Virus record (IMG/VR): IMGVR_UViG_3300025450_000002
Span: 1-64,000 of that record
Length of the DNA: 64,000 nucleotides
From: a virus
Direction: 5' to 3' (one strand)
Part shown: positions 18,680 through 33,830 of the stretch, piece by piece
How positions within the stretch are numbered: the first letter of the stretch is position 1
How the letters are laid out: the number at the start of each line of letters is the position of its first letter
Made by a program: the position numbers and the translations under genes
The notes under the pieces: model-generated
Databases searched by the model: none
What the model was told of the DNA's origin: nothing
What the model saw: only the letters and a program-made list of their open reading frames with translations

Positions 18680-18697
18680 TTCCACTTAGGCGTGGAA
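18680..18697 (+). repeat. 18-bp inverted repeat TTCCAC-N6-GTGGAA, copy 1
   Basis: TTCCAC TTAGGC GTGGAA, intergenic, ~100 bp before the 214-aa gene. Perfect arms. See the finding on this family. Confidence 0.7.
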
Positions 18698-18720
18698 GTT
18701 TGCATATCAATCAATTTATC

Positions 18721-18756
18721 AGGTATATATAACTTACCTAAGCAATATCGTTTAGG
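18721..18756 (+). promoter_or_regulatory. overlapping inverted repeats upstream of the 214-aa gene
   Basis: AGGTA (18721-18725) with TACCT (18735-18739), then CCTAA (18737-18741) with TTAGG (18752-18756). Two short dyads separated by AT-rich spacers and placed 40-75 bp before the start codon could be operators. Short arms, so weak evidence. Confidence 0.25.
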
Positions 18757-18797
18757 TTTTAATCAACGCATTACTTATTTTATAAGGAGAAGTAAAC

Positions 18798-19442
18798 ATG
18801 GTTACTAAAACCAAAAACCCCGTATTATCCCTCAACGTTACATCTTTAAAAGATGGTGCTTATCAACAAGCCAAAGCAAACGATACAATCCGTGTAGTTG
18901 CTCGTTATGCTATCAATAACATTGTAGGCTTTCCTGAAGATATCCCTAAGGAATCTTTAGAGCAGTTGAATGAGGGTTATCTCTTAAGATGGAATGAAAA
19001 TAATCCCCCTGTTACATACGCCGTTATCAATGACCATTTTATTACATACGACGAAGCAATCCATAAGGACTGTGAAAAGCGTGTTATTGGTGCTGATTAC
19101 ATTATGTCATTCAGTGGTCAGGCTTTTGGTGCATTAAAAGAGTCTGAACCATACTTACATGAGTTGTTAGTTCCAATTCGTAAGAAAATTCAAACTTACT
19201 GCAGTAACAGGGTCAACGATTTAAAGCGTGTAGGTAAACAGATAGTCAAAGAGTCAGACCCTGCTAGTAATACACGCTCATCAATTAAGAGTTTCAACGA
19301 AGTTGTCAAGGAAGTATTCGACGGCAAGAATGGTTTAGTTGCACGTTGCAAGACTGCTAAAAAGCAACGCAACGATACTGAAGCCGACGAAGTAAAATTA
19401 ACTCAATCAATTAACGCTTTCATGAAAGTATGGAATAGTTAA
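18798..19442 (+). CDS. early protein (214 aa), unknown
   Basis: ATG 18798 after TAAGGAGAAGTAAAC. Mixed alpha/beta: N-terminal ITV-rich region, central GADYIMSFSGQAFGALKESE, C-terminal basic helices (NRVNDLKRVGKQIVKESDP, CKTAKKQRNDTEADEVKL). Single-gene transcript: spaced from the preceding genes by ~200 bp and followed by a strong terminator, so probably expressed at high level very early. No family recognised. Confidence 0.7.
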   Translation: MVTKTKNPVLSLNVTSLKDGAYQQAKANDTIRVVARYAINNIVGFPEDIPKESLEQLNEGYLLRWNENNPPVTYAVINDHFITYDEAIHKDCEKRVIGADYIMSFSGQAFGALKESEPYLHELLVPIRKKIQTYCSNRVNDLKRVGKQIVKESDPASNTRSSIKSFNEVVKEVFDGKNGLVARCKTAKKQRNDTEADEVKLTQSINAFMKVWNS

Positions 19443-19452
19443 TTATTTTTAG

Positions 19453-19485
19453 ACCTGATACACGCAAGTGTATCAGGTTTTTTTT
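19453..19485 (+). terminator. strong Rho-independent terminator
   Basis: An 11-bp stem ACCTGATACAC, GCAA loop, GTGTATCAGGT, followed by a run of 8 T (19478-19485). Ends the first early unit after the 214-aa gene. Confidence 0.9.
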
Positions 19486-19575
19486 CGTCCGTCAACTATG
19501 AAACCAGTTACATATTTGTGCGTGCGTGAGTGTGCATCATTTAATTTTATTCTAAATGACAGGATTTACTTTGCT

Positions 19576-19593
19576 TTCCACGTGGACGTGGAA
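19576..19593 (+). repeat. 18-bp inverted repeat TTCCAC-N6-GTGGAA, copy 2
   Basis: TTCCAC GTGGAC GTGGAA; intergenic, at the left border of the AT-rich repeat region. The spacer repeats the right arm. Confidence 0.7.
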
Positions 19594-19846
19594 AAATTCC
19601 AAGTTTTTGACGTCGCCCTCATGTGTTCGACAAAAAAATTCTAGAATTTTTATAACAACTTGGAATTTTTTTCGCTTGTAACTTATTGATTTAGTTAAAC
19701 AATAAAAAAAATTCCAAAAATTCCAACTTTTTTTGGGAGTATGTCAGGTTAAAAGCAGTTTTTTTCATATCAAGAGAGTCTTGCATAGAGTGCATATTAG
19801 TAAATAAAAAAATCGCCTGCAAAGTCCCGTATACTTAAAAAAACAT

Positions 19847-19874
19847 GGAATTTTTGGAATTTTTGGAATTTTTT
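19847..19874 (+). repeat. tandem 9-bp repeat GGAATTTTT x3
   Basis: Three head-to-tail units at 19847, 19856 and 19865, followed within a few bases by the ATT/TTA microsatellite (19878-19903). Confidence 0.8.
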
Positions 19875-20053
19875 ATATATTATTATTATTATTATTATTA
19901 TTTAATTAATAAATACAAGGACTTAGCGATTTTCACCAACAAAAAATCAAGCACTTACCTCAACCCCAAACTTGGAATTTTTCTTAGAATTTTCCATCAA
20001 ACTTGGAATTTTTTACCCACCACCTCAAACTAACTAAATAAACTAAAGGGGTA

Positions 20054-20080
20054 TTGTTATATGTAAAGTTATGTTATACT
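20054..20080 (+). promoter_or_regulatory. early promoter A
   Basis: TTGTTA at 20054-20059 and TATACT at 20075-20080, with 15-bp spacing (or TATTGT with 17 bp). The spacer and downstream bases ATGTAAAGTTAT and TATACTTATAACAG are shared almost exactly with promoter B at 21551. Just downstream, AGATGG and CCATCT (about 20087-20117) form an inverted repeat in the leader. Confidence 0.6.
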
Positions 20081-20142
20081 TATAACAGATGGGAGAAGTA
20101 AATTAACTCACCATCTACTTAGCGTCGTATTTTTATTTAATC

Positions 20143-20160
20143 TTCCACGTCCACGTGGAA
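20143..20160 (+). repeat. 18-bp inverted repeat TTCCAC-N6-GTGGAA, copy 3
   Basis: TTCCAC GTCCAC GTGGAA, a perfect palindrome except the centre, in the leader 17 bp before the 65-aa gene. As RNA it would form a hairpin next to the ribosome site. Confidence 0.7.
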
Positions 20161-20177
20161 AACCTTAGGAGAATGTC

Positions 20178-20375
20178 ATGGATAACAACCAAACTGCATT
20201 GAACGCTGTATTAACTTATAGACTCAAGAACACACAGGCTATCATCGAGGAGATTTTTACCCCAATGCAACGTGCTGAACTGCAACAACGTATTGACTCA
20301 CTTCGTGCTATCCAAGTTGAAGACGAATACATACAACAGAATGTAGTTGACTACATGGTAACGACCTTTCGCTAA
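20178..20375 (+). CDS. small early helical protein (65 aa)
   Basis: ATG 20178 after TTAGGAGAATGTC. Helical, mixed charge (NAVLTYRLKNTQAIIEEIFT, MQRAELQQRIDSLRAIQVED). No motif recognised. Lies downstream of promoter A and an 18-bp repeat. Confidence 0.65.
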   Translation: MDNNQTALNAVLTYRLKNTQAIIEEIFTPMQRAELQQRIDSLRAIQVEDEYIQQNVVDYMVTTFR

Positions 20376-20392
20376 TTAGTTTTTCACTACAT

Positions 20393-20414
20393 GGTGGAAC
20401 GTAAAACTTCCACC
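20393..20414 (+). repeat. hairpin of opposite polarity GGTGGAA-N8-TTCCACC
   Basis: Arms 20393-20399 and 20408-20414, 8-nt loop, 17 bp after the 65-aa stop. It is the same arm sequence as the 18-bp repeats but turned outwards (GTGGAA first), forming a 7-bp stem. It may serve as an mRNA end. Confidence 0.6.
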
Positions 20415-20454
20415 TATTCCATTTCTATTTATCTATTTTTATTTAGGAGAAGTT

Positions 20455-20667
20455 ATGAGTGCAATCAAAAGACAATACATGAACTGGTGCGAGCAACACA
20501 ATATAGAACCTGAAGATGACCTTGCATGGCTTCACAAAGCAGTCGAGCAACCACAATGGGTCAACGACTTTAACAACTGGCTAGACCAAATCACTTATAA
20601 GCATCCACTATCAGATGGAGAACTAAATGACATGAACAACACGAACATGGAGAACGACAATGATTGA
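20455..20667 (+). CDS. small acidic early protein (70 aa)
   Basis: ATG 20455 after TAGGAGAAGTT. Trp-rich and acidic (YMNWCEQHNIEPEDDLAWLH; QPQWVNDFNNWLDQITY). No known family. Overlaps the next gene by 8 bp. Confidence 0.65.
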   Translation: MSAIKRQYMNWCEQHNIEPEDDLAWLHKAVEQPQWVNDFNNWLDQITYKHPLSDGELNDMNNTNMENDND

Positions 20668-20878
20668 TGAATCTTTTACACCACAGTGCAAGTTATGTGG
20701 TTCTATCTATGATAAGCGTCGCTTTGATATAGGATTCTTATTCTGCATGCCATGTGGTAACGACGTAGCCAAGCAAGTCAAACGCACAGTAGTGCCAATG
20801 CACAAATCAAACTACATGATGGTCACAAACCGAGATGACTTAATCGGTATTAACAACAAGGGAGGACTTGTCAAATGA
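20660..20878 (+). CDS. zinc-ribbon small protein (72 aa)
   Basis: Cys10-x2-Cys13 and Cys29-x2-Cys32 (QCKLCGS and FCMPCGND) form a zinc ribbon; the rest is short and basic. It may bind nucleic acid or a host protein. Coupled to the 70-aa gene by an 8-bp overlap. Confidence 0.65.
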   Translation: MIDESFTPQCKLCGSIYDKRRFDIGFLFCMPCGNDVAKQVKRTVVPMHKSNYMMVTNRDDLIGINNKGGLVK

Positions 20879-20908
20879 TAACCAATGAACAGAAGAAAGG
20901 GGAGTGAA

Positions 20909-21364
20909 ATGGGATATAGGTCAGCAGTAGCATACACGATCAGGTTTATACCTGATGAAAACGAGAAGCCTTTAGGCAAGGTGCGTGATTCATTTTATAC
21001 ATTCTTAGCCGAAGCGAAAGCCAAGACAGAAACACAGTTATGTTTCGACGAAGACCAAGCCATGAATGTCAAAGAGGAAAATGGCGAGGGGTTTTATGTT
21101 AATGAGCAAGAGATGAAGATTGACTTCCTTGCGTGGCACGTCAAGTGGTATGACGGCTATCCTGATGTCGATTGTCATGAAGCGTTACTCTCATTAGCGC
21201 AAGAGTGGTGCGAAGATGAAGCGACAGGTAACCCATATATCGGTGGTGCTTATGTAAGGATTGGCGAGGAAGTAGATGACAACGACGAGCGATGGTTTGG
21301 AACTGCCGAGAGCGACTGGTTATCTATCAGTAGAACTATATGTAGAGATGGGAAAGAGATATGA
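20909..21364 (+). CDS. conserved phage protein of the MGYRS type (151 aa), unknown
   Basis: Start chosen at ATG 20909 (MGYRSAVAYTIRFIPDENEK) after AAAGGGGAGTGAA; an upstream in-frame ATG at 20885 is in the ribosome site. The MGYRS..AY opening is seen in small unknown proteins of many phages and plasmids. Acidic, Trp/Tyr-rich (FLAWHVKWYDGYPDVDCHEA). Start of next gene overlaps by ATGA. Confidence 0.65.
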   Translation: MGYRSAVAYTIRFIPDENEKPLGKVRDSFYTFLAEAKAKTETQLCFDEDQAMNVKEENGEGFYVNEQEMKIDFLAWHVKWYDGYPDVDCHEALLSLAQEWCEDEATGNPYIGGAYVRIGEEVDDNDERWFGTAESDWLSISRTICRDGKEI

Positions 21365-21540
21365 GAATAACAGTTGAAAGACGTAGCGTGTATGGCAACG
21401 AGATGATATACCCCAAGTGCGAGACTGCGAAACTATTGGCGAAACTAGCCAACCATGTGACGCTAACCAAGCATGATATATCAGTTATTAAACAATTAGG
21501 CTATGAAGTTGTATGCCTAGCAAACGAAATAACTTTATAG
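21361..21540 (+). CDS. small protein (59 aa), unknown
   Basis: ATG 21361 overlaps the previous stop (ATGA). MRITVERRSVYGNEMIYPKC then ETAKLLAKLANHVTLTKHDI and KQLGYEVVCLA: a short conserved-looking alpha/beta protein that I associate with small unknown proteins in other phages. Missing from simple long-frame searches because of its length. Confidence 0.65.
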   Translation: MRITVERRSVYGNEMIYPKCETAKLLAKLANHVTLTKHDISVIKQLGYEVVCLANEITL

Positions 21541-21550
21541 AATAAAAGAC

Positions 21551-21579
21551 TTGTATAATATGTAAAGTTATAGTATACT
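21551..21579 (+). promoter_or_regulatory. early promoter B
   Basis: TTGTAT (21551-21556), exactly 17 bp, TATACT (21574-21579), nearly ideal for host sigma70. It shares ATGTAAAGTTAT and TATACTTATAACAG with promoter A, pointing to a common regulator or a duplicated promoter. It would drive the 30-aa membrane protein and the ATPase/VWA cassette. Confidence 0.65.
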
Positions 21580-21604
21580 TATAACAGTTGGGAAAGGAAT
21601 ATTT

Positions 21605-21697
21605 ATGTTAGAAGATATCGTAGTGAAGTTAGTAATCGTAGGTGCTTTAATCTATTTAGCCTTCCACGTTATAGTGGATTTTCATTTAATCAATTAA
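21605..21697 (+). CDS. tiny membrane protein (30 aa)
   Basis: ATG 21605 after GGGAAAGGAATATTT. MLEDIVVKLVIVGALIYLAF then HVIVDFHLIN: one transmembrane helix. An 18-bp repeat lies in its coding sequence and supplies FHVIVD, the same peptide type the repeat gives in the next gene. Confidence 0.55.
   Translation: MLEDIVVKLVIVGALIYLAFHVIVDFHLIN
21662..21679 (+). repeat. 18-bp inverted repeat, copy 4 (one arm mismatch)
   Basis: TTCCAC GTTATA GTGGAT, inside the 30-aa coding sequence, encoding FHVIVD. Confidence 0.55.
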
Positions 21698-21706
21698 GGA
21701 GAAGTT

Positions 21707-22633
21707 ATGGACAGTATTAGAACCAACCTAGAAATGCCTGAGCATTTAATCTCACTAGCGACAAGCGCAGTATTAGTAAGCGTCGATGTCAGCGTGTGGT
21801 CAGCAACGAAACAAGATAGGGGTATCAGTGATGAGGTTACTACATCAAAGAATGCAGACAAGTCGGCAGGTCGCTACGTTAAGAATCTATTGGCGAACCA
21901 CCCGTCGCACAAAGCCATTGTGAATTATAGGCAGACTATATATAACTGGCTTCAGCGTCGCACTTATAAGTGGAATCAGTCACAAGAATTACTACCATGC
22001 GTTGACCTACCCAAGTTTAAGCAAGAGTGGCATGAACATGAAACTGCGTTCCACGTCCTCGTGGATACGTTTAAGAACCAGTATGATTCTATCGTATCGG
22101 ATATGGCTTTCAAACAAGGTGATATGTTTAACAGAAATGATTATCCACCCAAAGAACAGATTACATCAAAGTTTAGTCTTAACTTGTATGTGAGCGAAGT
22201 GCCTGTTAATGACTTTAGATGCAATATTGCAAGGGATATCGCAGATGATCTTTTTAGTTCATTGTCCAAGCAATCCAAGTCAATTATAGAGAACATAGCG
22301 AACGAACAAGTCGAAAGGCTAATAGATGTGATGCAGAGTATCTCGCATTGTTGTGGTGTGGACGAGTTAGTTCCGAAAGATGGTGGTGAAATAAAAACCA
22401 AGCGTCGCAAGATATACGATACGACGATACAGAAAGCGTTAGAGATGTGTGAGAGTTACAAAGTATTTAATCTTAAGCATGATAACGAGCTAGAACTGGC
22501 ACGTGCATCGCTAGAGAAAGTCTTACATGGTGTTACGGCAGAGGATATCCGAGATAGTGACGCTGTGCGTTCCAATGTCAAAGAGGGGGTTGATGGCATT
22601 TTGTCGAAGTTCGGTGCATTTAGTTGTGTATAG
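21707..22633 (+). CDS. DUF3150-like partner of the ATPase/VWA cassette (308 aa)
   Basis: ATG 21707 after TTAAGGAGAAGTT. The N-terminal strand VLVSVDVSVWSATKQDR followed by helical sequence resembles DUF3150-type proteins, which are found beside MoxR-like ATPases and VWA proteins in phages and mobile elements. Mostly helical; two clusters of charged residues near the C-terminus. The family call is from memory and should be treated as tentative; the genomic context (ATPase at 22783, VWA metallopeptidase at 24267) agrees. An 18-bp repeat lies inside it at 22049. Confidence 0.55.
   Translation: MDSIRTNLEMPEHLISLATSAVLVSVDVSVWSATKQDRGISDEVTTSKNADKSAGRYVKNLLANHPSHKAIVNYRQTIYNWLQRRTYKWNQSQELLPCVDLPKFKQEWHEHETAFHVLVDTFKNQYDSIVSDMAFKQGDMFNRNDYPPKEQITSKFSLNLYVSEVPVNDFRCNIARDIADDLFSSLSKQSKSIIENIANEQVERLIDVMQSISHCCGVDELVPKDGGEIKTKRRKIYDTTIQKALEMCESYKVFNLKHDNELELARASLEKVLHGVTAEDIRDSDAVRSNVKEGVDGILSKFGAFSCV
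22049..22066 (+). repeat. 18-bp inverted repeat, copy 5 (one arm mismatch)
   Basis: TTCCAC GTCCTC GTGGAT inside the 308-aa gene, encoding FHVLVD, in the same reading frame as copy 4. Confidence 0.6.
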
Positions 22634-22641
22634 GAGGTTTC

Positions 22642-22782
22642 ATGGATGAAGCATTAATGCAGTTTTATGAATGGAAAGAATGGGCAGTGCCATTCACACC
22701 CGAAGGGGAAAAGTTGTATGAAGCACAGAAGACAAGCTGGTTGGCTTGTTGGGAATTTTTAACTAATCAAAAGGAGAAGTAA
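22642..22782 (+). CDS. small Trp-rich protein (46 aa)
   Basis: ATG 22642 after TAGGAGGTTTC. MDEALMQFYEWKEWAVPFTP, then EGEKLYEAQKTSWLACWEFL. Its stop codon touches the start of the ATPase gene (TAAATG), and the ATPase ribosome site lies in its last codons, so the two are translationally linked. Function unknown. Confidence 0.65.
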   Translation: MDEALMQFYEWKEWAVPFTPEGEKLYEAQKTSWLACWEFLTNQKEK

Positions 22783-23856
22783 ATGAGTAAAATGAATTTT
22801 GTTCCAACAGTATCTATCAACGAGTTGCGTAAACTCATTCCTGTAATAGCATCAGAATTGACAGTAGTCATAACTAGCGAACCTGGTTGTGGCAAGACAA
22901 GTCTATTAAAAATGATGGAAGAAGATCTTGGAGATGCTTACCAATATATCTACGTTGACTGTCCTGTAAAAGATATGTCAGACATAGGTATGACAATACC
23001 GAACCACACTACCAAGACCCTTGAGTATTATGTGTCTAGTCTATTCTGTTTAGATGACCCAAGACCTAAGGTTATTTGTCTAGACGAGTTCATGAAGTCA
23101 CCCAAGTTATTGCAAGTTATCTTTACTCGCATGATGTTAGATAAAATGGTAGGCGATGTTCCACTACCACGTGGAAGCCTAATCTTTGCAACGAGTAACA
23201 ATGCTTCCGATGGTGTAGGCGACTCAATGCTTGCTCATGCTGGCAATCGTGTATGTAAGGTAGAGATGGCAAAGCCTGATACTAATACTTGGCTTCAATG
23301 GGCATCAGATAATAATATCTCTCGTGTTGTCAGAGCGTTCGTTGCGTTGTTCCCAAGAGTTCTCGCATCATATAGAGATGGCAACCAAGACGATAACCCA
23401 TACATCTTCAAACCTAACATGAACACCTTGTCATTCTGTTCGCCTCGTTCCTTAGCGAAGTGCGACGTGATTGTAAAGAATAGAGATGTCTTAGGTGAGA
23501 ATGCAACAATGGTCGCACTTGCAGGCACTATCGGTCAGAGTGCATCGGCAGATATGTCAGCGTTTCTATCGCTAGAGAAAACCTTAATAGATGTAAAAGA
23601 TATTCTCAAAGCACCAGAGTTAGTAAAGATACCTGACGAGATATCAGCGCAGTTAATGATTATGTTTCAGGCAGTAGATGTATTAGAGACGCAAGACGAG
23701 TTGACGAAGTTCATGTCATTCGTTAATAAGATTCCTAGTTCAGAAGTCCAAGCCGTATTCTTTACTATGATGATGCGTAATGCAAAGGCAATTAAGTTGG
23801 CTCGCAATAATGCACAGATTGCAGAGTGGGCTAAGAACAACCATGAATTATTTTAA
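22783..23856 (+). CDS. MoxR-like AAA ATPase
   Basis: 357 aa. Walker A EPGCGKTS at residues 33-40, Walker B VICLDEF with D101-E102, then SLIFATSNNASDGVGDSM, a sensor-1 region with the Asn after the strand. Subunit size and layout match MoxR/dynein-like AAA ATPases that act as chaperones for VWA proteins. It is paired with the VWA metallopeptidase three genes downstream. Predicted cytoplasmic hexamer that remodels a target using the VWA protein as adaptor; the target is unknown. Confidence 0.8.
   Translation: MSKMNFVPTVSINELRKLIPVIASELTVVITSEPGCGKTSLLKMMEEDLGDAYQYIYVDCPVKDMSDIGMTIPNHTTKTLEYYVSSLFCLDDPRPKVICLDEFMKSPKLLQVIFTRMMLDKMVGDVPLPRGSLIFATSNNASDGVGDSMLAHAGNRVCKVEMAKPDTNTWLQWASDNNISRVVRAFVALFPRVLASYRDGNQDDNPYIFKPNMNTLSFCSPRSLAKCDVIVKNRDVLGENATMVALAGTIGQSASADMSAFLSLEKTLIDVKDILKAPELVKIPDEISAQLMIMFQAVDVLETQDELTKFMSFVNKIPSSEVQAVFFTMMMRNAKAIKLARNNAQIAEWAKNNHELF
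23159..23176 (+). repeat. 18-bp inverted repeat, copy 6
   Basis: TTCCAC TACCAC GTGGAA, perfect arms, inside the ATPase gene (encoding VPLPRGS). Confidence 0.65.
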
Positions 23857-23866
23857 GGAGAAGTAA

Positions 23867-24073
23867 ATGTTAAAGACATTAAATATAACAGACGAAGAGT
23901 TTACTAGATTAACAGACCAAGCAACAATAGATATGTATGAAGAATACTTATCGGAATCAGAAGATAAAGTCACTAGCGATCTTCGTGAAGACACATTCAT
24001 CAATGGGTTTCGATTAGGTATGAAATTCGTAGCCTTATTAATTAAGAAACAGATAGAAGGAGAAAGTAAATGA
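23867..24073 (+). CDS. small acidic helical protein (68 aa)
   Basis: ATG 23867 after AAGGAGAAGTAA. Acidic (DEEFTRLTDQATIDMYEEYL) with a hydrophobic C-terminal patch (GFRLGMKFVALLIKKQ). Overlaps the next start by ATGA. Lies inside the ATPase/VWA cassette. Function unknown. Confidence 0.65.
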   Translation: MLKTLNITDEEFTRLTDQATIDMYEEYLSESEDKVTSDLREDTFINGFRLGMKFVALLIKKQIEGESK

Positions 24074-24264: not shown

Positions 24265-24266
24265 TC

Positions 24267-25556
24267 ATGGAAATGAAAAACAAACAGGAAACAAGACTGA
24301 AGAAAGCACATATCGCATTGATGAAACACCCTGAGACTGCGTTGTATTCAGGTGTGATGCTTATGGGTAAGAGCGAGATAGCGGACGAAGTATTTACTGC
24401 ATATACAGATGGTGTGAACAAGAGATATTCTAAGCCATTCGTTGAGAAAATACTTATCGAAGCGAAGTTGCGTGGCTTAGTCTTGCATGAGAATCTTCAC
24501 GTTGCATTGAAACAGATTCCAAGAGGTAAGGATATGTTCAAGGAAGATAGACAGATTGCAAACATGGCAGCCGACTTTGTGGTCAACGACATAATAAAGA
24601 ATATTACAGGAACAGTTGCGAATGGTCACGAGCCTATCGTAGAGTTACCTGATGGTGCGTTGTATGACTCATTCTTTCATAATTGGTCGATGCGTGAAGT
24701 ATATAACCACATACGCAAAGAGAATCCTCAGCGACAGAAACCTAGTGATAGCTCATGTGATGAGCCTACCAAAGGCGATGGAGATGAAGATAGTAGTCCA
24801 CGTGGTAGTGGAACGATATATGCGAATGGCAAGCCTTATGATATTGGGCATCAATTCGATGAACATGACTGGGAATCGTATGTCGAAGGACTCAGCGACG
24901 AGGAACGCAAGGAGTTGGGAGATAAGATTGACCGAGCCTTGCGTGAGGGTGGTATGCTTGCAGGTCGTATGGGTGGCAAGATGCCTAGACAGATTAGTGA
25001 CTTGCTTGAACCGAGAGTAGATTGGCGAGAAGTCTTGCGTGAGTTTGTCGCTTCCACGATGAAAGGGAACGATGAATACACATGGCGCAAGATGAGTAAG
25101 CGTCACATGGCTAATGACATTTATCTACCAAGCATGGAGAACGAGACGATCGGTGAGGTTGTCGTTGCGATAGATACTTCAGGTTCAATCGGTGAGCGTG
25201 AGTTGACAGAGTTTGCAACGGAACTGGCATCAATCGTCGATCTTGTGTCGCCTGAAGCAGTTAGAGTTATATGGTGGGATTACGATGTTCATGGTGAGCA
25301 ATACTTCAAGCCTGAACATTACAGAGATATTGCATCATTACTAAAACCCTTAGGTGGTGGTGGCACTAGAGTCTCATCAGTCAACCATTACATCAATGAG
25401 AAGAAGATTAACGCAGAGTGTGTCATCGTGTTTACCGATGGTTATGTAGAAAGTGACATCGAGTGGACAATCTCTTCCCCTACCCTGTGGATGGTAACTC
25501 AGAACAAAGCACTTGAAGTCCCATCAGGTAAGAAAGTCGTAGTTAACAATGATTGA
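24267..25556 (+). CDS. metallopeptidase-VWA protein (DUF2201-like)
   Basis: 429 aa. N-terminal helical domain with the zincin motif HENLH at residues 74-78 (LVLHENLHVAL), as in the putative metallopeptidase half of DUF2201 proteins. Acidic/Gly linker at about 155-200. C-terminal von Willebrand A-like domain: VVVAIDTSGSIGE gives the MIDAS residues D303, S305 and S307; GGGGTRVSSV supplies the Thr; VIVFTDGYVE supplies the Asp. Partner of the MoxR-like ATPase. Such pairs act in metal insertion or in protein remodelling; here the substrate may be a host factor or virion part. Overlaps the next gene by 8 bp. Confidence 0.75.
   Translation: MEMKNKQETRLKKAHIALMKHPETALYSGVMLMGKSEIADEVFTAYTDGVNKRYSKPFVEKILIEAKLRGLVLHENLHVALKQIPRGKDMFKEDRQIANMAADFVVNDIIKNITGTVANGHEPIVELPDGALYDSFFHNWSMREVYNHIRKENPQRQKPSDSSCDEPTKGDGDEDSSPRGSGTIYANGKPYDIGHQFDEHDWESYVEGLSDEERKELGDKIDRALREGGMLAGRMGGKMPRQISDLLEPRVDWREVLREFVASTMKGNDEYTWRKMSKRHMANDIYLPSMENETIGEVVVAIDTSGSIGERELTEFATELASIVDLVSPEAVRVIWWDYDVHGEQYFKPEHYRDIASLLKPLGGGGTRVSSVNHYINEKKINAECVIVFTDGYVESDIEWTISSPTLWMVTQNKALEVPSGKKVVVNND
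24796..24813 (+). repeat. 18-bp inverted repeat, copy 7 (one mismatch)
   Basis: GTCCAC GTGGTA GTGGAA, inside the metallopeptidase-VWA gene, in the Ser/Gly linker. Confidence 0.5.
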
Positions 25557-25857: not shown

Positions 25858-26901
25858 ATGGATAGCACATTGAATTGGAATAGACTTACAAACATAACTA
25901 AAACTGTGAAACCCTTTCGTGGAACAACCAATAGGTTTCCTATCGCTAATAGATCTCATAATACAAAGTGTTTTTATGTAGAAGAGTTAGATGGCGAAAC
26001 TGTATACCGAGTGACGTATGGCTATCATTACAAAGAAATCTTCCATACTAAAGAAGAATGGGAGAAAGACCCAAATAAAATCTCTTGTAGAGACTGGGAA
26101 GAAGATGAGAGCAAGAAGTATGTTACCTACACTACTATACCTAGAGACTTAGGCATCGTGCGTTCTGACAACACGTTTCAGTTTACTGCCAAATACTACG
26201 GACAAGGTGACAATACTATGCTTAGTGGTTGGGGGCAAGGTTGGTTCTTTAGTAGTTCACGTCATGGTGGAATGGTATATATGAACGCATACAGAGGTGA
26301 TGATAGAAGTATCTTTCATCCGATATTCGAAGGTATGCGAATCAACATGAATACTATGATGCCCCATGAATCTTCTAACTATCAAGTGTTAGGTAGACGT
26401 GTATCACGTATTGATGCCAAGAAGTTTTTAACTAGATACGAAACATTCTACAAAGTAAATGAGGTTATGTTCAAAACGATTGATTGGAAGACATTGATGG
26501 ATACGGCAGTCGACGTAGTAAGTTCATTGGTAGATGAAAGTGAGTTACAAAACTATTACATCAGTAGCACATCAAACGAGAAAATAATAACGTGGGCAGA
26601 CGATAACATTGACGTAGCACCACTTGACTCAGCCCTAGCATTTGCAGTTGGGCATGACATAGGTAATATGTATCGACGAATGAGAGCGCACGCTATTGAC
26701 TCAAACAGTAATCAATTCCGTTGGATGGATTCAGAGCCAATGAATCTCTACGCAAATCTCAAGCGTAAGTTGAATCATGAACTATACAAGCGTCACCATG
26801 GAGTAATGAAAGACGTTACGTTCCCGATGGGCAAACCATATCCAGCAAGTAACTGGGGGATACGAGTTATGGTTGATGGTAAAGAAGTAAAACAATACTA
26901 A
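25858..26901 (+). CDS. early protein (347 aa), unknown
   Basis: ATG 25858 directly after the previous stop. N-terminal beta-rich half with Tyr/Gly/Trp-rich strings (YRVTYGYHYKEIFHTKEEW; GQGDNTMLSGWGQGWFFSSS; MVYMNAYRGDDRSIFHPIFE), then helices. Unknown in function, but proteins with this look occur in large early regions of related phages. No catalytic motif found. Confidence 0.65.
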   Translation: MDSTLNWNRLTNITKTVKPFRGTTNRFPIANRSHNTKCFYVEELDGETVYRVTYGYHYKEIFHTKEEWEKDPNKISCRDWEEDESKKYVTYTTIPRDLGIVRSDNTFQFTAKYYGQGDNTMLSGWGQGWFFSSSRHGGMVYMNAYRGDDRSIFHPIFEGMRINMNTMMPHESSNYQVLGRRVSRIDAKKFLTRYETFYKVNEVMFKTIDWKTLMDTAVDVVSSLVDESELQNYYISSTSNEKIITWADDNIDVAPLDSALAFAVGHDIGNMYRRMRAHAIDSNSNQFRWMDSEPMNLYANLKRKLNHELYKRHHGVMKDVTFPMGKPYPASNWGIRVMVDGKEVKQY

Positions 26902-26909
26902 GGAGAATC

Positions 26910-27227: not shown

Positions 27228-27228
27228 A

Positions 27229-28164
27229 ATGAAATACGCAATAGAAGGAATTACAAAGCAAGCAACAATAGACTATATCGAGAGTTCACCAGTAAAGAAA
27301 CTCATATATGAATTGAATTACAAGTATGGCTTAAAAGCGTTGACTGTAATAGCAGTCGAAAAACGAGGGGAAAATGTCCGTCACGAGGTTGTGTTAACCG
27401 ACCCTATGGGTGGGTTTGCCGTAGGTAGAGTATGGACAACAGTAGACAATAAAGACATCGTGTATCACTATCGTTCGCCTTACGCTTCAAAGGATAGAGG
27501 TAGGACTAGTGAGGATAGAGAAACTTATTATGGTAAGAAATTATCATCTTTGATGAGTGTGCTAAAAACTAACGAAGTAATACCTACTAAAGATAGTCCA
27601 CAACTATTAACTATTCATAATCGTATTTTCGCCAATGCTAATTACTCTTTACAAGAAACACACGGTAAACACAGAAAAGATGTAGAGTTAACTTTAGATG
27701 AACAACATTCTTTATTGAGATACGCACTAGGTGAAACTACTACTCTATTTGATGAAAATAAATGTAAAAAAATACTTGACAAATATAATACGTTAGATAA
27801 AATAAAACAAGAATCAGACGAAGATGTAGATAGGTTCTTCAACAAAGGTTTCTATGCAGTTGGTGTAGATATGTTTAATCATTTAATAGTGGGGAAAGTT
27901 GTGAAAAATAAATCTAGTTACGAAATAGTAGAATCATTCGAGAGGGTGATGGACTTCAGTAAGCATGAACATCTACAAGCAATCATGACTATGCAAAAAG
28001 TTTATCATGAGCAACAAGGTAAATACACTAAGTTCTACGGAAATTACATTCCACTATACAGTGGATACCTAAAAGACCTAGACATCATTCAGATGAATAA
28101 TCGTGAGCCACACATTCATGACTTAGCTTGGACTCTTATCCCATGCACAGCACTTTCCGTATGA
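27229..28164 (+). CDS. early protein (311 aa), unknown
   Basis: ATG 27229 after AAGGAGAAGTGAA. Alternating strands in the first 120 residues (RHEVVLTDPMGGFAVGRVWT; VYHYRSPYASKDRGRTSEDR), helical second half. No recognisable motif. Stop overlaps the next start (ATGA at 28161-28164). An 18-bp repeat lies at 28049. Confidence 0.65.
   Translation: MKYAIEGITKQATIDYIESSPVKKLIYELNYKYGLKALTVIAVEKRGENVRHEVVLTDPMGGFAVGRVWTTVDNKDIVYHYRSPYASKDRGRTSEDRETYYGKKLSSLMSVLKTNEVIPTKDSPQLLTIHNRIFANANYSLQETHGKHRKDVELTLDEQHSLLRYALGETTTLFDENKCKKILDKYNTLDKIKQESDEDVDRFFNKGFYAVGVDMFNHLIVGKVVKNKSSYEIVESFERVMDFSKHEHLQAIMTMQKVYHEQQGKYTKFYGNYIPLYSGYLKDLDIIQMNNREPHIHDLAWTLIPCTALSV
28049..28066 (+). repeat. 18-bp inverted repeat, copy 8 (one arm mismatch)
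   Basis: TTCCAC TATACA GTGGAT, inside the 311-aa gene. Confidence 0.55.
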
Positions 28165-28514
28165 AGATAGAAATGCTTAGCCCAATAGCACATCAATATA
28201 CACATGGGCTATATCGTGTGCCGTTACATAAAGACGGAAATCATTACACACTATTTGTAGCCGATGGGTATAAGAGAGACTTTGACGAGAACACTTTACC
28301 TGATGAGATCAAAACTAAGATAGCCATGATACTTGCGAGAGATAAACAAATCGCACATGACCATGAGTTAACACACTTAGGATTGATGGCATCTGTAAAA
28401 GATGATGCGTTAATAGACGTGGGGTGGCAAAGGAGTGAAAGTTGGTTCATCATCGTGTTACCCATAGCATCGTTAATGAAACTAAGAGGAGAGAATAATG
28501 GCGCAGACACCTGA
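28161..28514 (+). CDS. early protein (117 aa), unknown
   Basis: Start taken at ATG 28161 (MKIEMLSPIAHQYTHGLYRV) because it overlaps the previous stop by ATGA. Helix in the middle (ETALMILARDKQ-like), C-terminus DVGWQRSESWFIIVLPIASL. Overlaps VRR-NUC by 17 bp. No family recognised. Confidence 0.6.
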   Translation: MKIEMLSPIAHQYTHGLYRVPLHKDGNHYTLFVADGYKRDFDENTLPDEIKTKIAMILARDKQIAHDHELTHLGLMASVKDDALIDVGWQRSESWFIIVLPIASLMKLRGENNGADT

Positions 28515-28806
28515 AGCAAAAGTTAAAAAGAAAGTAAAACAGTATCTTACCACTAGAGGTATTTATTTTACTATGCCGTTCACTGCTGGTTTTGGGGCGA
28601 ACGGAGTGCCTGACATACTTGTGTGTTATCAAGGAAAGTTTATAGCGATAGAGTGCAAGGCTAATGGCAACAAGCCAACAGCATTACAAGGAGAACACAT
28701 GAAGAGAATTCAACGTGGGGGTGGAACGGCAGTTGTCGTTGATGAAAGGAATGTCGACACAATGCTAGAGGGATTATTTGATGATACAGATGATGGGAGA
28801 TGCTAG
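28498..28806 (+). CDS. VRR-NUC domain nuclease
   Basis: 102 aa, a stand-alone VRR-NUC (PD-(D/E)XK fold) as in many phages. Start after GAGGAGAGAATA. Conserved Glu6 in the first helix; GVPDILVCYQGKFIAIECKA carries D39, E52 and K54 of the catalytic motif; then helix with LQGEHMKRIQRGGGTAVVVD. Stand-alone enzymes of this type are structure-specific DNA nucleases (Holliday-junction-type resolvases). Probably acts on replication or recombination intermediates. Confidence 0.9.
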   Translation: MAQTPEAKVKKKVKQYLTTRGIYFTMPFTAGFGANGVPDILVCYQGKFIAIECKANGNKPTALQGEHMKRIQRGGGTAVVVDERNVDTMLEGLFDDTDDGRC

Positions 28807-28821
28807 ATAACTGGCTTCAAT

Positions 28822-29043
28822 ATGACCGACCAAGATAAAGAATATTTAAGAGATTTGTTTGCGTGCTTCGCCATGAATGCGATAGTAAGTCGAGGTATAA
28901 GAGAAGAGATAGTAGATAGTGTTGCAGAAAACTCTTATATGATGGCAGACGCTATGATGGAAGCCCGCAACAAAAAAGAACCCAAGATGGGTATAACCGC
29001 AGTAAACCAACCTAAGAGGAGAAGTAGAAATGAAAGTAAGTAA
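28822..29043 (+). CDS. small early protein (73 aa), unknown
   Basis: N-terminal half acidic helix (DQDKEYLRDLFACFAMNAIV), C-terminus basic (KPKMGITAVNQPKRRSRNES-like). The end overlaps the next start by 14 bp. No clear ribosome site. Modest support as a gene: gap-free packing and an early-gene style. Confidence 0.55.
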   Translation: MTDQDKEYLRDLFACFAMNAIVSRGIREEIVDSVAENSYMMADAMMEARNKKEPKMGITAVNQPKRRSRNESK

Positions 29044-29485
29044 AATCCAAGCAGTAAAAAACTTGATGGACAAAAACCCTAGCATGACCGCATCTGAGAT
29101 ATCCAAGAAGTTAGGAATTAAGATTGGCTATGTCTACACAATGATGTCTAAGATAAGAAAACCAAAATTTGATATTAAAAAGATAGAAGCCGTTTTACAG
29201 GAAGAAGCATCACCCCCAGTAAGCGTCGAACAGGTAAAAGATTTTGTATATAGCATTTCACTAGGACGTGGAACAGTAGATAACGTCAATCATCCATCCC
29301 ATTACAAGACAGGTGGCATTGAAACAATCGACTTCATTGAAGCGAAGCAGTTGGGATACCATCTCGGTAACGTCGTCAAATATATTACTAGAGCAGACCA
29401 CAAGGGTAACAAGTTGGAAGACTTGATGAAAGCCCAATGGTATTTGAGCCGTGCGATAGAGAACGAGGAGAAGAATAATGGATGA
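29030..29485 (+). CDS. HTH domain fused to DUF3310
   Basis: ATG 29030 after AGAGGAGAAGTAGAA. 151 aa: N-terminal HTH (residues about 1-45, MTASEISKKLGIKIGYVYTM), linker, then from about residue 84 a DUF3310 module: VNHPSHYKTGGIETIDFIEA, LGYHLGNVVKYITRADHKGN, LEDLMKAQWYLSRAIE. DUF3310 proteins are found in phages near nucleotide metabolism or DNA replication genes; activity unproven. The HTH-DUF3310 fusion suggests DNA targeting. Overlaps the next start by 8 bp. Confidence 0.8.
   Translation: MKVSKIQAVKNLMDKNPSMTASEISKKLGIKIGYVYTMMSKIRKPKFDIKKIEAVLQEEASPPVSVEQVKDFVYSISLGRGTVDNVNHPSHYKTGGIETIDFIEAKQLGYHLGNVVKYITRADHKGNKLEDLMKAQWYLSRAIENEEKNNG
29266..29283 (+). repeat. 18-bp inverted repeat, copy 9 (one mismatch)
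   Basis: TTTCAC TAGGAC GTGGAA, inside the HTH-DUF3310 gene in the linker before the DUF3310 module. Confidence 0.5.
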
Positions 29486-29864: not shown

Positions 29865-29872
29865 TTTTTTGG

Positions 29873-29904
29873 GGGGTAAGGTTCATGCCTTGCTCCCCTT
29901 TTTT
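29873..29904 (+). terminator. Rho-independent terminator
   Basis: Imperfect stem GGGGTAAGG ... CCTTGCTCCCC (29873-29898) with TTCATG loop followed by six T. Ends the cassette after the SPFH-like gene. Confidence 0.8.
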
Positions 29905-29940
29905 GTAACTATACACCACGTTATTTAAGGAAACTAATTT

Positions 29941-30195
29941 ATGTCAACAAGCTCTTTCCCAAGTCCACCACCATTGAGTATATCTTTACCAAATTTAAAT
30001 ATACCATTACCACAAGCACCACCCGAGTATTTACCAAATGAAATAGCTGAATATTTAAAGAGTATGGGTTGGGAGATGAACATGAACGGTTCACAATACT
30101 TTTTTAGATCGTTGAATGGTCGCCCAGCAGGTTATTACAGTTGGAGTGAAGCAGTAACGTATTGCCTAATTAAACCATTTTTAAAGGAGGAGTAA
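29941..30195 (+). CDS. small protein with Pro/Ser-rich N-terminus (84 aa)
   Basis: First ~35 residues Pro/Ser-rich (SFPSPPPLSISLPNLNIPLP), then a compact domain with EIAEYLKSMGWEMNMNGSQY and GRPAGYYSWSEAVTY. First gene after a terminator, so it probably has its own promoter in 29905-29940. Function unknown. Confidence 0.6.
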   Translation: MSTSSFPSPPPLSISLPNLNIPLPQAPPEYLPNEIAEYLKSMGWEMNMNGSQYFFRSLNGRPAGYYSWSEAVTYCLIKPFLKEE

Positions 30196-30196
30196 G

Positions 30197-30547
30197 ATGA
30201 GTGAAGAAAAACAAATTGATATTAGCAACGGAGTGAACATCGTGTTGGCAAGAATGGACACGCACCCTGAGGAGTTTTGGGGCGAGTGCGAGAAGTGGCG
30301 CTTCATCTATAAAGAATATTTTAGAGATGCCATGACAGAAGTGCAGAAGGGACAGATCTTCGAGAAAATCAAACAGATTCGCATGGAAGAATTTAACCAC
30401 ATGGTATTTGCTACGCTGACCGAAGAGGAAGAAAAAGAAGAGGAAGAGGACGGTTGGACACCATCCACAGGAATATTTGGAAGTGCGCCAATGAAACGTG
30501 AAGGCAGTTCGGTTAACTACCATACTAAGTGGAAGGCAAAGAAATGA
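30197..30547 (+). CDS. ARMDTHPEEF-family protein, paralogue 1 (116 aa)
   Basis: NGVNIVLARMDTHPEEFWGE, then DAMTEVQKGQIFEKIKQIRM and an acidic linker plus basic C-terminus. The 'LxRMxTHPxEF' signature at about residues 15-25 and the following two helices are shared with the 117- and 134-aa paralogues at 30544 and 31537. Function unknown; a compact 60-residue helical domain with variable tails. Coupled to the next gene (ATGA). Confidence 0.7.
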   Translation: MSEEKQIDISNGVNIVLARMDTHPEEFWGECEKWRFIYKEYFRDAMTEVQKGQIFEKIKQIRMEEFNHMVFATLTEEEEKEEEEDGWTPSTGIFGSAPMKREGSSVNYHTKWKAKK

Positions 30548-30897
30548 ACGGTGGAGTAGAAATATTATTAGCGAGGATGGATACGCACCCTGAGGAGTTC
30601 TTTCAAGACAGTAGGTGGCGCAATCTTATTATGGACTTTGTTAGGGACTTACCTAAAGAGGATGTTCAAGCATTAGAAAATAAACTGAAAGAGTGTCGTC
30701 AGAAAGAATTTACAGGGATAGTCTTAGAGCGCTTGGTCAATGAAGAGAAGGAAGATAAAAGACTTATGAGAAATTATAGTAATCCGATGATGTTTCATGG
30801 CTTTACGCAATTAGATGCTGATGAAGAGGATATGAAGGAAGACGGACTGAGCGATGCACAGATTGCAGTAATTAAAAAGATGAAAGGTGAGAAATGA
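30544..30897 (+). CDS. ARMDTHPEEF-family protein, paralogue 2 (117 aa)
   Basis: ATG 30544 overlaps the previous stop (ATGA); the frame is open five codons further upstream, but the paralogue alignment begins at MNGGVEILLARMDTHPEEFF. Helices LPKEDVQALENKLKECRQKE, then acidic tail. Second of three paralogues. Overlaps the next start by ATGA. Confidence 0.7.
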   Translation: MNGGVEILLARMDTHPEEFFQDSRWRNLIMDFVRDLPKEDVQALENKLKECRQKEFTGIVLERLVNEEKEDKRLMRNYSNPMMFHGFTQLDADEEDMKEDGLSDAQIAVIKKMKGEK

Positions 30898-31292
30898 CAG
30901 CAAATGAATTAATAGATAAGTTAGAAAGTGTAAGTATTAGATTGCTGGGTAAAGAAACTGAGCAAGCAGGTAGAGCTATTATTCTTTACAGAGAATCAGC
31001 GATTATGCTACTCCAACAAGCCCAAAAAATAGAAGCGTTGAAAAAAGAACTAGCACTACAAAGACTATCTGATTTTAGTCAAGAGATTGAGGATAGGGAA
31101 TCTGCTATATACGCAACTGGCTATTGGAAAGGCATTGAGTATAAAAAAATGCGTGAATTAAGTGATGCAACAATACGAGAACTGTCAGTTGCTTTTATGT
31201 TGGTATTACGCAGAACTCCTGAAGATGAACTTTTTGAAAATGTATATGAATATTCAAAATTACTATTAAAGAAAGCGAGTAGTGAGAAATGA
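30894..31292 (+). CDS. helical early protein (132 aa), unknown
   Basis: Coupled by ATGA to paralogue 2. Nearly all-helical with charged coiled-coil character (SAIMLLQQAQKIEALKKELA; RELSDATIRELSVAFMLVLR). No family recognised. Confidence 0.6.
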   Translation: MTANELIDKLESVSIRLLGKETEQAGRAIILYRESAIMLLQQAQKIEALKKELALQRLSDFSQEIEDRESAIYATGYWKGIEYKKMRELSDATIRELSVAFMLVLRRTPEDELFENVYEYSKLLLKKASSEK

Positions 31293-31435
31293 CACCTAGA
31301 GAAGAACTTGTTTACAAATTACGCAGTGAAGGAATGATATACAGATTAATAGGTGAACAGCTTGGGGTTACAGGTGTAAGAGCGAATCAAATTTACAAAA
31401 AATGCCTAAGAAAAAATGCTAAGAAAGGCGAGTGA
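31289..31435 (+). CDS. small HTH-like protein (48 aa)
   Basis: ATG 31289 overlaps the previous stop (ATGA). MTPREELVYKLRSEGMIYRL, then IGEQLGVTGVRANQIYKKCL: helix-turn-helix pattern resembling sigma region 4 or a simple DNA-binding unit. Basic end. Short, but all neighbours are equally tightly coupled. Confidence 0.6.
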   Translation: MTPREELVYKLRSEGMIYRLIGEQLGVTGVRANQIYKKCLRKNAKKGE

Positions 31436-31438
31436 GAA

Positions 31439-31540
31439 ATGAGTACGTTTTTTGAGTGGTACATTGAAATTTTATGGTTAAGTATGTTTTTAGTTGGTTT
31501 TGCTATTGGTGTTGCTTTAAAGATAGGGAAAAAGAAATGA
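31439..31540 (+). CDS. tiny membrane protein (33 aa)
   Basis: ATG 31439 follows the previous TGA by 3 bp. MSTFFEWYIEILWLSMFLVG, then FAIGVALKIGKKK: one transmembrane helix with positive tail. Its stop overlaps the next start (ATGA). Confidence 0.6.
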   Translation: MSTFFEWYIEILWLSMFLVGFAIGVALKIGKKK

Positions 31541-31941
31541 ACGCAGGAATTGAAATAATACTAGAGCGTATGAAGACACACCCTGATGAGTTTGTGATAG
31601 GATCACCGATCACTTATGATAGTAAATGGGGAAGTTTTCTTAGAGAGATAATGGACGCTGAATACTTTGATGAAACAGAAAAAGATGCAGTCCGTATCGC
31701 TGTTCGTGAAGCAAACCGAGAGGGTTTTACTGGTCGTGTGATGCAACATTTAGCAGGAGAGGGCGAAGCGAGTGACATGGGAAAGTTCCAATCCCACACG
31801 TTTACCACGCAACCAATAAACCCCTATTATGGTCAGGGGCTGATCAGTCAGTTACAAGCTGGGCAAATAGGCTTAGCCTCGGCACAACAACAGTCGGCGC
31901 AACAATCTTCCCTAAGTAAGACGAAGGCAAAACTTAAATGA
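31537..31941 (+). CDS. ARMDTHPEEF-family protein, paralogue 3 (134 aa)
   Basis: Start set to ATG 31537 (MNAGIEIILERMKTHPDEFV) from the paralogue alignment and the ATGA overlap; the frame is open to 31474 but that part is in the membrane gene. It has a helical core (EYFDETEKDAVRIAVREANR) and a Gln-rich tail (ISQLQAGQIGLASAQQQSAQ). Overlaps PolA start by ATGA. Confidence 0.7.
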   Translation: MNAGIEIILERMKTHPDEFVIGSPITYDSKWGSFLREIMDAEYFDETEKDAVRIAVREANREGFTGRVMQHLAGEGEASDMGKFQSHTFTTQPINPYYGQGLISQLQAGQIGLASAQQQSAQQSSLSKTKAKLK

Positions 31942-33830
31942 ATCTAATAACATTAGATTTTGAGACGATGTATAGTCAAGACTACTCGCTAACGAAACTC
32001 ACTACTGAGGAATACATTAGAGACAAACGCTTCGAGGTGATAGGTGTCGGAGTTAAACTAAACGATGGTGTTACTGAGTGGTTTAGTGGTTCGCATCTTG
32101 AGGTCGCTAAATACCTTTCCACCCTGCCGTGGAACGATAGTGCCTTACTCTGTCATAACACAATGTTTGATGGTGCGATTCTTAAGTGGCGCTTTCAATT
32201 AAGTCCTAAGTTATATCTTGATACTTTGTGTATGGGTAGGGCTATACATGGCGTAGATGTAGGCGGATCATTAGCCTACCTTGCTGAAAAATATAATTTA
32301 GGGAAGAAGGGACATGAGGTAGTTGAGGCTAAAGGTAAAAATATAACTGGTTTCACAAATAGCGAACTTGCCCAATACGGCGAGTATTGTAAAAATGATG
32401 TGGAGTTAACTTTCAAACTTTTCCAAGTATTGTCTAGTGCGTTTCCTGCCGATGAGATAAACCTGATCGACATGACTTTACGTATGTTTATTCAACCTGT
32501 ATTACGAGTTGATTATGATTTATTGCAAGAACGATTGGAAGAACTGAAGCATGAGAAGTTACAGTTATTAGGGACGCTCAAAGAGAAACTAAGTTGTGAA
32601 AACGAAGAAGCTGTGCGTAAACGCTTGGCAAGTAATAAGCAGTTTGCAGGTTTGCTCAAAGAGTTTAATATCCCAGTGCCATTAAAAATAAGTCCTACTA
32701 CTGGTAAAGAAACATTTGCATTAGCCAAGAACGATACAGGCTTTATTGAGTTAGTAGAACATGAAGACCCGTTCGTACAACAACTCGCTGCGGTGCGTTT
32801 GGGAACGAAATCAACAATTGAGGAGAGTAGAATTGAACGGTTTATCGACGTTGGGGCTAGGAACAAGGGTATGCTACCAATCCCCCTTAAATATTATGGC
32901 GCACATACAGGTAGGTGGGCGGGTTCGGACAAGGTCAACTTCCAAAACTTACCGAGTAGAGACAAGAAGAAAAAGGCTCTTAAAAATGCCGTTATCGCTC
33001 CTGACGGGTATGTCGTTATCAACTGTGATTCGTCGCAAATTGAAGCTAGAGTCCTTGCGTGGTTATCAGGTCAGGAAGGGCTGGTCAATTCGTTTGCCAA
33101 TGGGAACGATGTTTACTCCGAGTTTGCGTCGAAAATATATGAAAGACCAATCAGTAAAAAAGACCCTATTGAAAGGTTTGTGGGCAAGACGTGCATACTC
33201 GGGCTGGGATATGGGACTGGTGCGTTAAAGTTACAACACACATTAAAGACACAACCCCCTGGAGCTGACCTTACGGAAGATGTGTGTGATGATATTGTTA
33301 AGCTATACAGATCTGAGAATGATCAGATTGTGAAGCTGTGGAAGGAAGGCGACAAAGCATTAAAGGCTATGAATAATTGGACTAAAGATAAAAAGCCTTT
33401 CTACTATGGCAAGCATAGATGTGTTGAAGTGCATAGCGATGGTATACGCTTGCCGAACGGACTCTATATCCGTTACCCTGAACTCCAGCTTAACACTGAT
33501 GAACTTATTAGCGGATACCAATATAAGTCACGCAAAGGGCCCGTTAGTTTGTGGGGCGGATCAGTTGTGGAAAACGTAGTGCAAGCACTTGCAAGAATTA
33601 TTGTAGGTGAACAGATGTTAAAACTAACTGAGCGTTATCGCCCAGTGCTTACTGTACACGACGCAGCGGTGTGTGTCGTGCCTGAAGATGATGTAGATGA
33701 GGCTTGTGCATGGATCGTCGAGGTCATGTCAACAGCACCAGACTGGGCTAAAGGACTACCCGTCGCTTGTGAGGCTCAATATGGATATAACTATGGGGAA
33801 ATGAAAGAATGGAAACCGAAGAAAGAATAA
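31938..33830 (+). CDS. polA: family A DNA polymerase with 3'-5' exonuclease
   Basis: 630 aa, T7-like size. Exonuclease: D7 and E9 in LITLDFETMY (Exo I), then ALLCHNTMFDGAILKW (Exo II) and GEYCKNDVELTF (Exo III). Polymerase: motif A INCDSSQIEARVLAWLSG with D364 and E369; motif B RFVGKTCILGLGYG with K417 and Leu421 at the position of E. coli Phe762; motif C VHDA with D575 and Ala576 where most have VHDE. No 5'-nuclease domain. Replicative enzyme of the phage; needs primase-helicase (39504). Carries an 18-bp repeat at 32117. Confidence 0.95.
   Translation: MNLITLDFETMYSQDYSLTKLTTEEYIRDKRFEVIGVGVKLNDGVTEWFSGSHLEVAKYLSTLPWNDSALLCHNTMFDGAILKWRFQLSPKLYLDTLCMGRAIHGVDVGGSLAYLAEKYNLGKKGHEVVEAKGKNITGFTNSELAQYGEYCKNDVELTFKLFQVLSSAFPADEINLIDMTLRMFIQPVLRVDYDLLQERLEELKHEKLQLLGTLKEKLSCENEEAVRKRLASNKQFAGLLKEFNIPVPLKISPTTGKETFALAKNDTGFIELVEHEDPFVQQLAAVRLGTKSTIEESRIERFIDVGARNKGMLPIPLKYYGAHTGRWAGSDKVNFQNLPSRDKKKKALKNAVIAPDGYVVINCDSSQIEARVLAWLSGQEGLVNSFANGNDVYSEFASKIYERPISKKDPIERFVGKTCILGLGYGTGALKLQHTLKTQPPGADLTEDVCDDIVKLYRSENDQIVKLWKEGDKALKAMNNWTKDKKPFYYGKHRCVEVHSDGIRLPNGLYIRYPELQLNTDELISGYQYKSRKGPVSLWGGSVVENVVQALARIIVGEQMLKLTERYRPVLTVHDAAVCVVPEDDVDEACAWIVEVMSTAPDWAKGLPVACEAQYGYNYGEMKEWKPKKE
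32117..32134 (+). repeat. 18-bp inverted repeat, copy 10
   Basis: TTCCAC CCTGCC GTGGAA, perfect arms, inside the polymerase exonuclease region. Confidence 0.65.

Follow-up and report, generated by a model that had tools for sequence, protein, structure and literature searches.

Lineage-specific palindromic sites dispersed through the early region of uncultured freshwater phages and a candidate protein for their recognition

Introduction

ParB-parS systems consist of multiple contiguous palindromic sites and a ParB-family protein, and their diversification is driven by incompatibility. Cluster A mycobacteriophages such as L5 and Bxb1 carry 20-30 stoperators, most of them outside promoters, and heteroimmune phages have distinct motifs (PMC6550527). 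Stoperators are asymmetric 13-bp sites oriented with transcription, and the Rep protein of these temperate phages is monomeric and contains a helix-turn-helix (HTH) as well as a stoperator domain (PMC9283540, PMC6550527). In the Bacillus phage SPbeta, the MrpR repressor binds the SPBRE elements, 15-bp sites located in promoter regions that were described long before MrpR itself, a protein with the tyrosine-recombinase fold (PMC10516654). The present work concerns a dispersed dyad, TTCCAC-N6-GTGGAA, and the gene g18798, whose product is the candidate binding protein, in the virus record IMGVR_UViG_3300025450_000002 of IMG/VR; the window analyzed comprises positions 1-64,000 of this 65,737-base record.

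As in Cluster A, the locus contains many copies of one short site, most of them outside promoters, and the site motif and the candidate protein diverge together. Unlike stoperators, the sites are palindromes of 18-20 bp that have a symmetric mutation spectrum and no orientation and are clustered in the early block; unlike Rep, g18798 gives no match to an HTH or a stoperator domain (no Pfam, PDB or fold match), its product being an orphan from the first early gene in a phage for which no lysogeny function was found among about 30 proteins scanned. With MrpR and SPBRE the locus shares several copies of one site in a phage genome and a phage-encoded master binder, here a candidate, although g18798 has no tyrosine-recombinase-fold match. 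Multiple palindromic sites also recall ParB-parS, from which the locus differs in that the arms are separated by 2-6 bp and no ParB-family protein was seen among those scanned.

A Dyad Array Confined to the Early Region

In its initial portion, the rightward early block of the window encodes an ATPase (phrog_1297), a DUF2201/VWA protein, a DUF3310 protein and a family-A DNA polymerase (PolA), and the late genes on the opposite strand include those for terminase, portal and capsid. When up to two mismatches were allowed, 18 matches to the dyad were found in the window, against a mean of 2.16 and a maximum of 6 in 100 dinucleotide shuffles of the window, which confirms the enrichment proposed in an initial annotation of this DNA. 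Five dyads are perfect (18680, 19576, 20143, 23159 and 32117), the number given there, and seven have one mismatch (20382, 21662, 22049, 24796, 28049, 28709 and 29256). All 12 lie inside 18680-32134 and none occurs in the remainder of the 65,737-base record, in agreement with the proposed confinement to the early region. Two-mismatch dyads at 21958, 25052, 25475 and 26255 fall within the same block, and those at 12136 and 36674 are consistent with chance. Most positions of the ten-site list drawn up initially hold; the site placed at 29266 is really 29256-29273, those at 20382 and 28709 had been missed, and the one at 24796 is present and begins GTCCAC. The "reversed hairpin" noted at 20393 can be seen at 20393-20414 and results from an extra half-site TTCCAC at 20409 together with the dyad at 20382, which overlaps it and had been overlooked. 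The gene and the sites are as follows, counts of homologous positions being lower bounds.

18798-19442, plus strand: g18798, first sizeable gene of the rightward early block; encodes a 214-residue orphan, the proposed cognate DNA-binding protein
18680-18697, no strand: dyad TTCCACTTAGGCGTGGAA, perfect, 100 bp upstream of the g18798 start; proposed autoregulatory operator
19576-19593, no strand: dyad TTCCACGTGGACGTGGAA, perfect, intergenic, downstream of g18798
20143-20160, no strand: dyad TTCCACGTCCACGTGGAA, perfect, in the leader of open reading frame (ORF) 20178
20382-20399, no strand: dyad TTTCACTACATGGTGGAA, one mismatch
21662-21679, no strand: dyad TTCCACGTTATAGTGGAT, one mismatch, in the leader of ORF 21707
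22049-22066, no strand: dyad TTCCACGTCCTCGTGGAT, within ORF 21707-22633; homologous position in at least 27 of 77 genomes
23159-23176, no strand: dyad TTCCACTACCACGTGGAA, within the ATPase gene; homologous position in at least 57 of 80 genomes
24796-24813, no strand: dyad GTCCACGTGGTAGTGGAA, within the DUF2201/VWA gene; homologous position in at least 73 of 79 genomes, with several operator classes
26255-26272, no strand: weak dyad GTTCACGTCATGGTGGAA, two mismatches, within ORF 25858-26901; homologous position in at least 52 of 69 genomes
28049-28066, no strand: dyad TTCCACTATACAGTGGAT, at the end of ORF 27229-28164
28709-28726, no strand: dyad TTCAACGTGGGGGTGGAA, within ORF 28498-28806
29256-29273, no strand: dyad TTTCACTAGGACGTGGAA, within the HTH-DUF3310 ORF 29030-29485
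32117-32134, no strand: dyad TTCCACCCTGCCGTGGAA, near the polA gene start; final site of the array

Operator Classes Across Related Phages

Relatives were collected from IMG/VR by means of the ATPase gene (80 loci) and through later scans (about 45 more, giving about 125, labeled L070, L071, L046 and so on), and their class motifs were found by symmetric motif fits per locus. Megablast against named phages returned no relative of the window, and two scans with divergent g18798 queries recovered only their own contig. The group is widespread, freshwater and uncultured.

Two features go beyond the initial annotation, namely the change of arms from one lineage to another and the naming of a likely binding protein. 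In nearly all of the related loci there are 7-21 dispersed dyads that keep the 18-20 bp design, with arms 2-6 bp apart and an arm sequence specific to the lineage. The nearest relatives share the TTCCAC site of the window and more distant ones keep the architecture with other arms: CCCAC, TTCAC, TCTCAC, CCCAGC, ATCTGTCA, TTCCGTC, TGTGGACA and TGTCGTCA, each of these with 7-21 sites per locus, and RTCTTG. In a shuffle control of thirteen sequences the best dyad mostly reached 2-4 copies, with none or one perfect. The RTCTTG arms belong to L062, which matches none of the other classes; a dyad was found 84 bp before its g18798-family gene, as expected, adjoining a TTGACA-N16-TAGAAT promoter, and about eight related RTCTTG-N6-CAAGAY sites are present in that locus.

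Related phages have their sites at positions homologous to those of the window, and the class changes without a change of position, in line with the earlier view that the sites did not spread by copying. Loss of the sites from these positions in close relatives, named initially as an outcome that would count against the observation, is therefore not what is seen. The same codons of the VWA gene read GTCCACGTGGTAGTGGAA in the window, ATCTGTCAGGTGACAGAC in L046, TTCCGTCAGGGGGCGGAA in L070 and ACCCAGCCAATGCTGGGC in L026, and the protein is altered as a consequence (SPRGSGT in the window, DLSGDRP in L046, VPSGGGN in L070). Since the coding sequence takes on the operator of each class at the expense of the protein sequence, selection appears to act on the DNA, which argues against the copying of a mobile repeat. 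In this codon comparison, entries with the ORF on the wrong strand (e.g., L007, L023, L051, L071 and L083) were ignored, for which reason the counts of homologous positions are minimum values.

Site information and site number are inversely related: classes with a 2-bp center (L046, L064 and L068) form near-perfect palindromes of 18-20 bp at few sites (7-8), and the weaker 6-bp arms of the CAC classes occur at many, often 13-21.

A larger array, of about 50 GTTACC-N6-GGTAAC sites, is found in the named but distant relative Rhizobium phage RHph_TM3_14A, in which the ATPase-VWA-PolA order is kept; the PolA relative Pseudomonas phage KPP25 has no such array. The first sizeable early gene of RHph_TM3_14A, EVB41_028 (MN988472.1 18372-19100; 6743-7471 of locus L086), encodes an orphan protein and is flanked by GTTACC dyads at 18319 and 19176 of the record. 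It is possibly an analog of g18798, to which it shows no detectable homology.

The g18798 Product as Candidate Binding Protein

All sites of one genome switch together, which points to a factor acting in trans. Protein distances of about 30 families were compared with operator distances while controlling for core-gene distance, and the g18798 family ranked first, with a partial r of 0.54 over all genomes and a partial Mantel value of 0.63; the next family, g21707, reached 0.50. The contrast is illustrated by L070 (TTCCGTC) and L071 (CCCAGC), which are 97% identical in ATPase, 98% in TerL, 93% in PolA and 84% in g21707; most of their early genes are 70-98% identical, three others 50-65% and some late structural genes 37-42%, and their g18798 homologs share about 30% identity. 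Among pairs with ATPases 85-99.5% identical, which are not mutually independent, the median g18798 identity was 0.76 for equal operators (n = 116) versus 0.33 for different ones (n = 50), the other genes shifting by 0.17 or less in the same test.

The position of the sites also relates to this gene. A site lies within 300 bp upstream of 97 of the 103 g18798-family genes, at a median of 90 bp before the start codon, and sites number 1.15 per kb on the downstream side of the g18798 gene start against 0.09 per kb on the upstream side. A -35-like hexamer tends to begin just after the upstream dyad, at offsets of 20-25 in 14 of the 19 scored promoters and at scattered positions in shuffles; this placement would center the operator near -46. 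A tandem second copy of g18798 is present in 34 of 82 loci (L012, L038, L064, L070 and L071 among others), the majority of these copies having their own upstream operator. Taken together, comparison of the sequences indicates that g18798, which has no Pfam, PHROG, PDB or fold match, very probably encodes the binder of the dyads.

A Putative Recognition Helix

Operator class is tracked best by the g18798 columns N137 and R138, and columns 141 and 144 score high as well. In an AlphaFold model with a predicted local distance difference test score of 86.7, the four residues are placed along a long helix (118-153) with one-face spacing, and N137, R138, D141 and R144 are proposed to read the half-site. 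CAC operators go with an S-N-R-x-x-D motif in this helix, CCCAGC with QGA or SGC, TTCCGTC with SDK or SDT, ATCTGTCA with STK, TGTGGACA with SKN and TGTCGTCA with SQR or SKN. N137 is found in every genome with a CAC operator and in no other (67/67). The TTCAC genomes L177-179, L191 and L197 keep N137 and not R138. L188 and L190, added later, fit the correspondence: they combine CAC operators with SNR, although non-CAC phages are among their nearest relatives by ATPase, and they differ from these relatives in both operator and helix.

Proposed Mechanism

A dimeric phage protein, likely the g18798 product, would bind the dyads, reading about 6-8 bp per half-site through the helix around residues 137-144. 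The operator about 90 bp upstream of its own gene would make g18798 autoregulated, and the 7-20 further sites would extend its action across the early/replication operon. The outcome would most likely be silencing of early transcription, by promoter occlusion at g18798 and elongation roadblocks in leaders and genes, comparable to mycobacteriophage stoperators. As a whole, the view that the dyads are operators of the g18798 product which mediate autoregulated, dispersed silencing of the early operon is reasonably probable from the sequence comparisons; the narrower assignment of g18798 as an autoregulated early-region repressor or roadblock could about equally well hold or fail. Acting on any DNA with its own site class, the protein might in addition silence relatives that superinfect the cell, and the switch of closely related phages to new protein-operator pairs would then be explained. 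Fast switching between near-identical phages suggests a role in self/non-self discrimination; superinfection exclusion by g18798 is put forward tentatively.

Several observations weigh against this proposal. The AlphaFold model of g18798 matched no known DNA-binding fold, and no g18798 homolog is detectable in RHph_TM3_14A despite its array. Operator class correlates just as strongly with single columns of VWA and TerL as with those of g18798; single-column correlation was dropped as proof since these control proteins score equally, and the evidence on individual residues rests on their clustering on one helix face and on the matched pairs. N137 and the CAC operator changed four times each on the core-gene tree, which derives from a quick search and has several weakly supported forks, and the independent CAC/non-CAC contrasts are only 3-4, so that a sign test cannot be significant. 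In addition, an operator beside the -35 hexamer fits activation as well as repression.

No integrase or ParA was found among the approximately 30 window proteins scanned, small ORFs having been scanned only in part, and the search for host prophages in 84,980 genomes yielded one stray metagenome-bin contig. This 7.6-kb contig (L211, CAIPLJ010000099.1), the sole relative from a genome collection, comes from an actinobacterium bin, a weak hint at an actinobacterial host given that mis-binning is possible.

Alternative Explanations

The g18798 protein might instead activate early transcription, the intragenic sites being weak or secondary, as the regular placement of the -35-like hexamer directly after the operator would allow. 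We consider this rather unlikely: the promoter match of g18798 in the window itself is poor, promoter-like sites in the early block show no excess (36 vs 47.5 in shuffles), and a number of the sites are found deep within genes or in leaders, 15-30 bp ahead of a start codon.

Equally improbable is a system for genome partition or organization of the ParB-parS kind, or one that marks the replication origin. The many dyads scattered through genes are in its favor, as is the fact that partition systems diversify owing to incompatibility; the CAC arms may resemble parS arms, and an origin could lie in the AT-rich repeats at 19.6-20.0 kb. However, g18798 has no Pfam match, neither ParA nor ParB appears among the window proteins scanned, the separated arms are unlike the contiguous parS, and the array tracks the early operon, starting at g18798 with a site at a fixed distance before that gene.

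Slightly less credible still is that another protein, a host factor or another phage protein, binds the sites and g18798 merely diverges alongside. The product of g21707 (308 residues, no family) came second in the co-variation test, and its model gave no fold match; it is 84% identical between L070 and L071 despite their different operators. Short HTH-like proteins are encoded, judging from translations, at 29030-29485, 31289-31435, 34714-34899 and 38898-39212. Two were rejected as binders: the putative recognition helix of 38898 is near-invariant across all classes, and 29030 does not follow the operators (0.03), its HTH not being seen in the aligned homologs of G001 and G003 though both carry sites. 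Those at 31289 and 34714 are present in few relatives.

The RNA hairpin (6-bp stem, 6-nt loop) that was the other reading offered initially, and through which the dyads would control the processing or translation of early mRNAs, is extremely improbable, even though the majority of sites lie within sense-transcribed early genes and raw core transitions favor G-U-compatible over incompatible changes (186 vs 104). That excess arises because a few large groups of homologous sites dominate, and it vanishes when each homologous site is counted once (37 vs 33, p 0.72). Across 938 non-redundant sites of the CAC classes, pairing between the two arms does not exceed that obtained when arms are exchanged at random among the sites of each genome, and no within-site covariation is seen at any variable arm position; no Rfam match was obtained, and classes with a 2-bp center (ATGTGGACA-N2) would leave a loop of only 2 nt. 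Thus the sites are almost certainly DNA operators, and the initially suggested DNA-binding protein is supported.

Other Features of the Locus

A 28-bp element, ATGTAAAGTTATNNTATACTTATAACAG, occurs twice in the window (20061-20088 and 21560-21587; 0 expected), about 55-75 bp upstream of the operators at 20143 and 21662, an arrangement that resembles a promoter unit with an operator behind it. The stretch 19600-20010 is AT-rich, apparently non-coding and contains many copies of TTGGAATTTTT and its complement; it is a possible replication origin. The DUF3310 protein encoded at 29030-29485 carries an N-terminal HTH-like extension, and the 2248-residue protein with an LPD38 domain encoded at 42591-49337 is large for a 66-kb phage. 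The "putative integrase" of RHph_TM3_14A (MN988472.1 42239-45322) seems to be the counterpart of the DUF927 protein of the window (39504-42410; 22% match), and the integrase and attL/attR (26780-26793) annotations of that record look doubtful.

Biological Significance

For the dispersed operator system of these widespread uncultured freshwater phages, the comparisons name a likely protein and suggest a tentative code of specificity. The phages supply about ten operator classes, for most of which the corresponding protein is at hand, and offer a natural test of how protein and site specificity change jointly. It is conceivable, though doubtful, that g18798 is the first member of a new family of sequence-specific DNA-binding proteins lacking a known fold, and that its protein-operator pairs form a self/non-self system with no sign of lysogeny, in which silencing of the early region turns off early genes and excludes close superinfecting relatives, and in which repeated changes of specificity have come about by altering every operator of the set, including those inside genes. 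If silencing occurs without lysogeny, a stoperator-like system would extend beyond temperate phages and may constitute a route to superinfection exclusion among virulent relatives.

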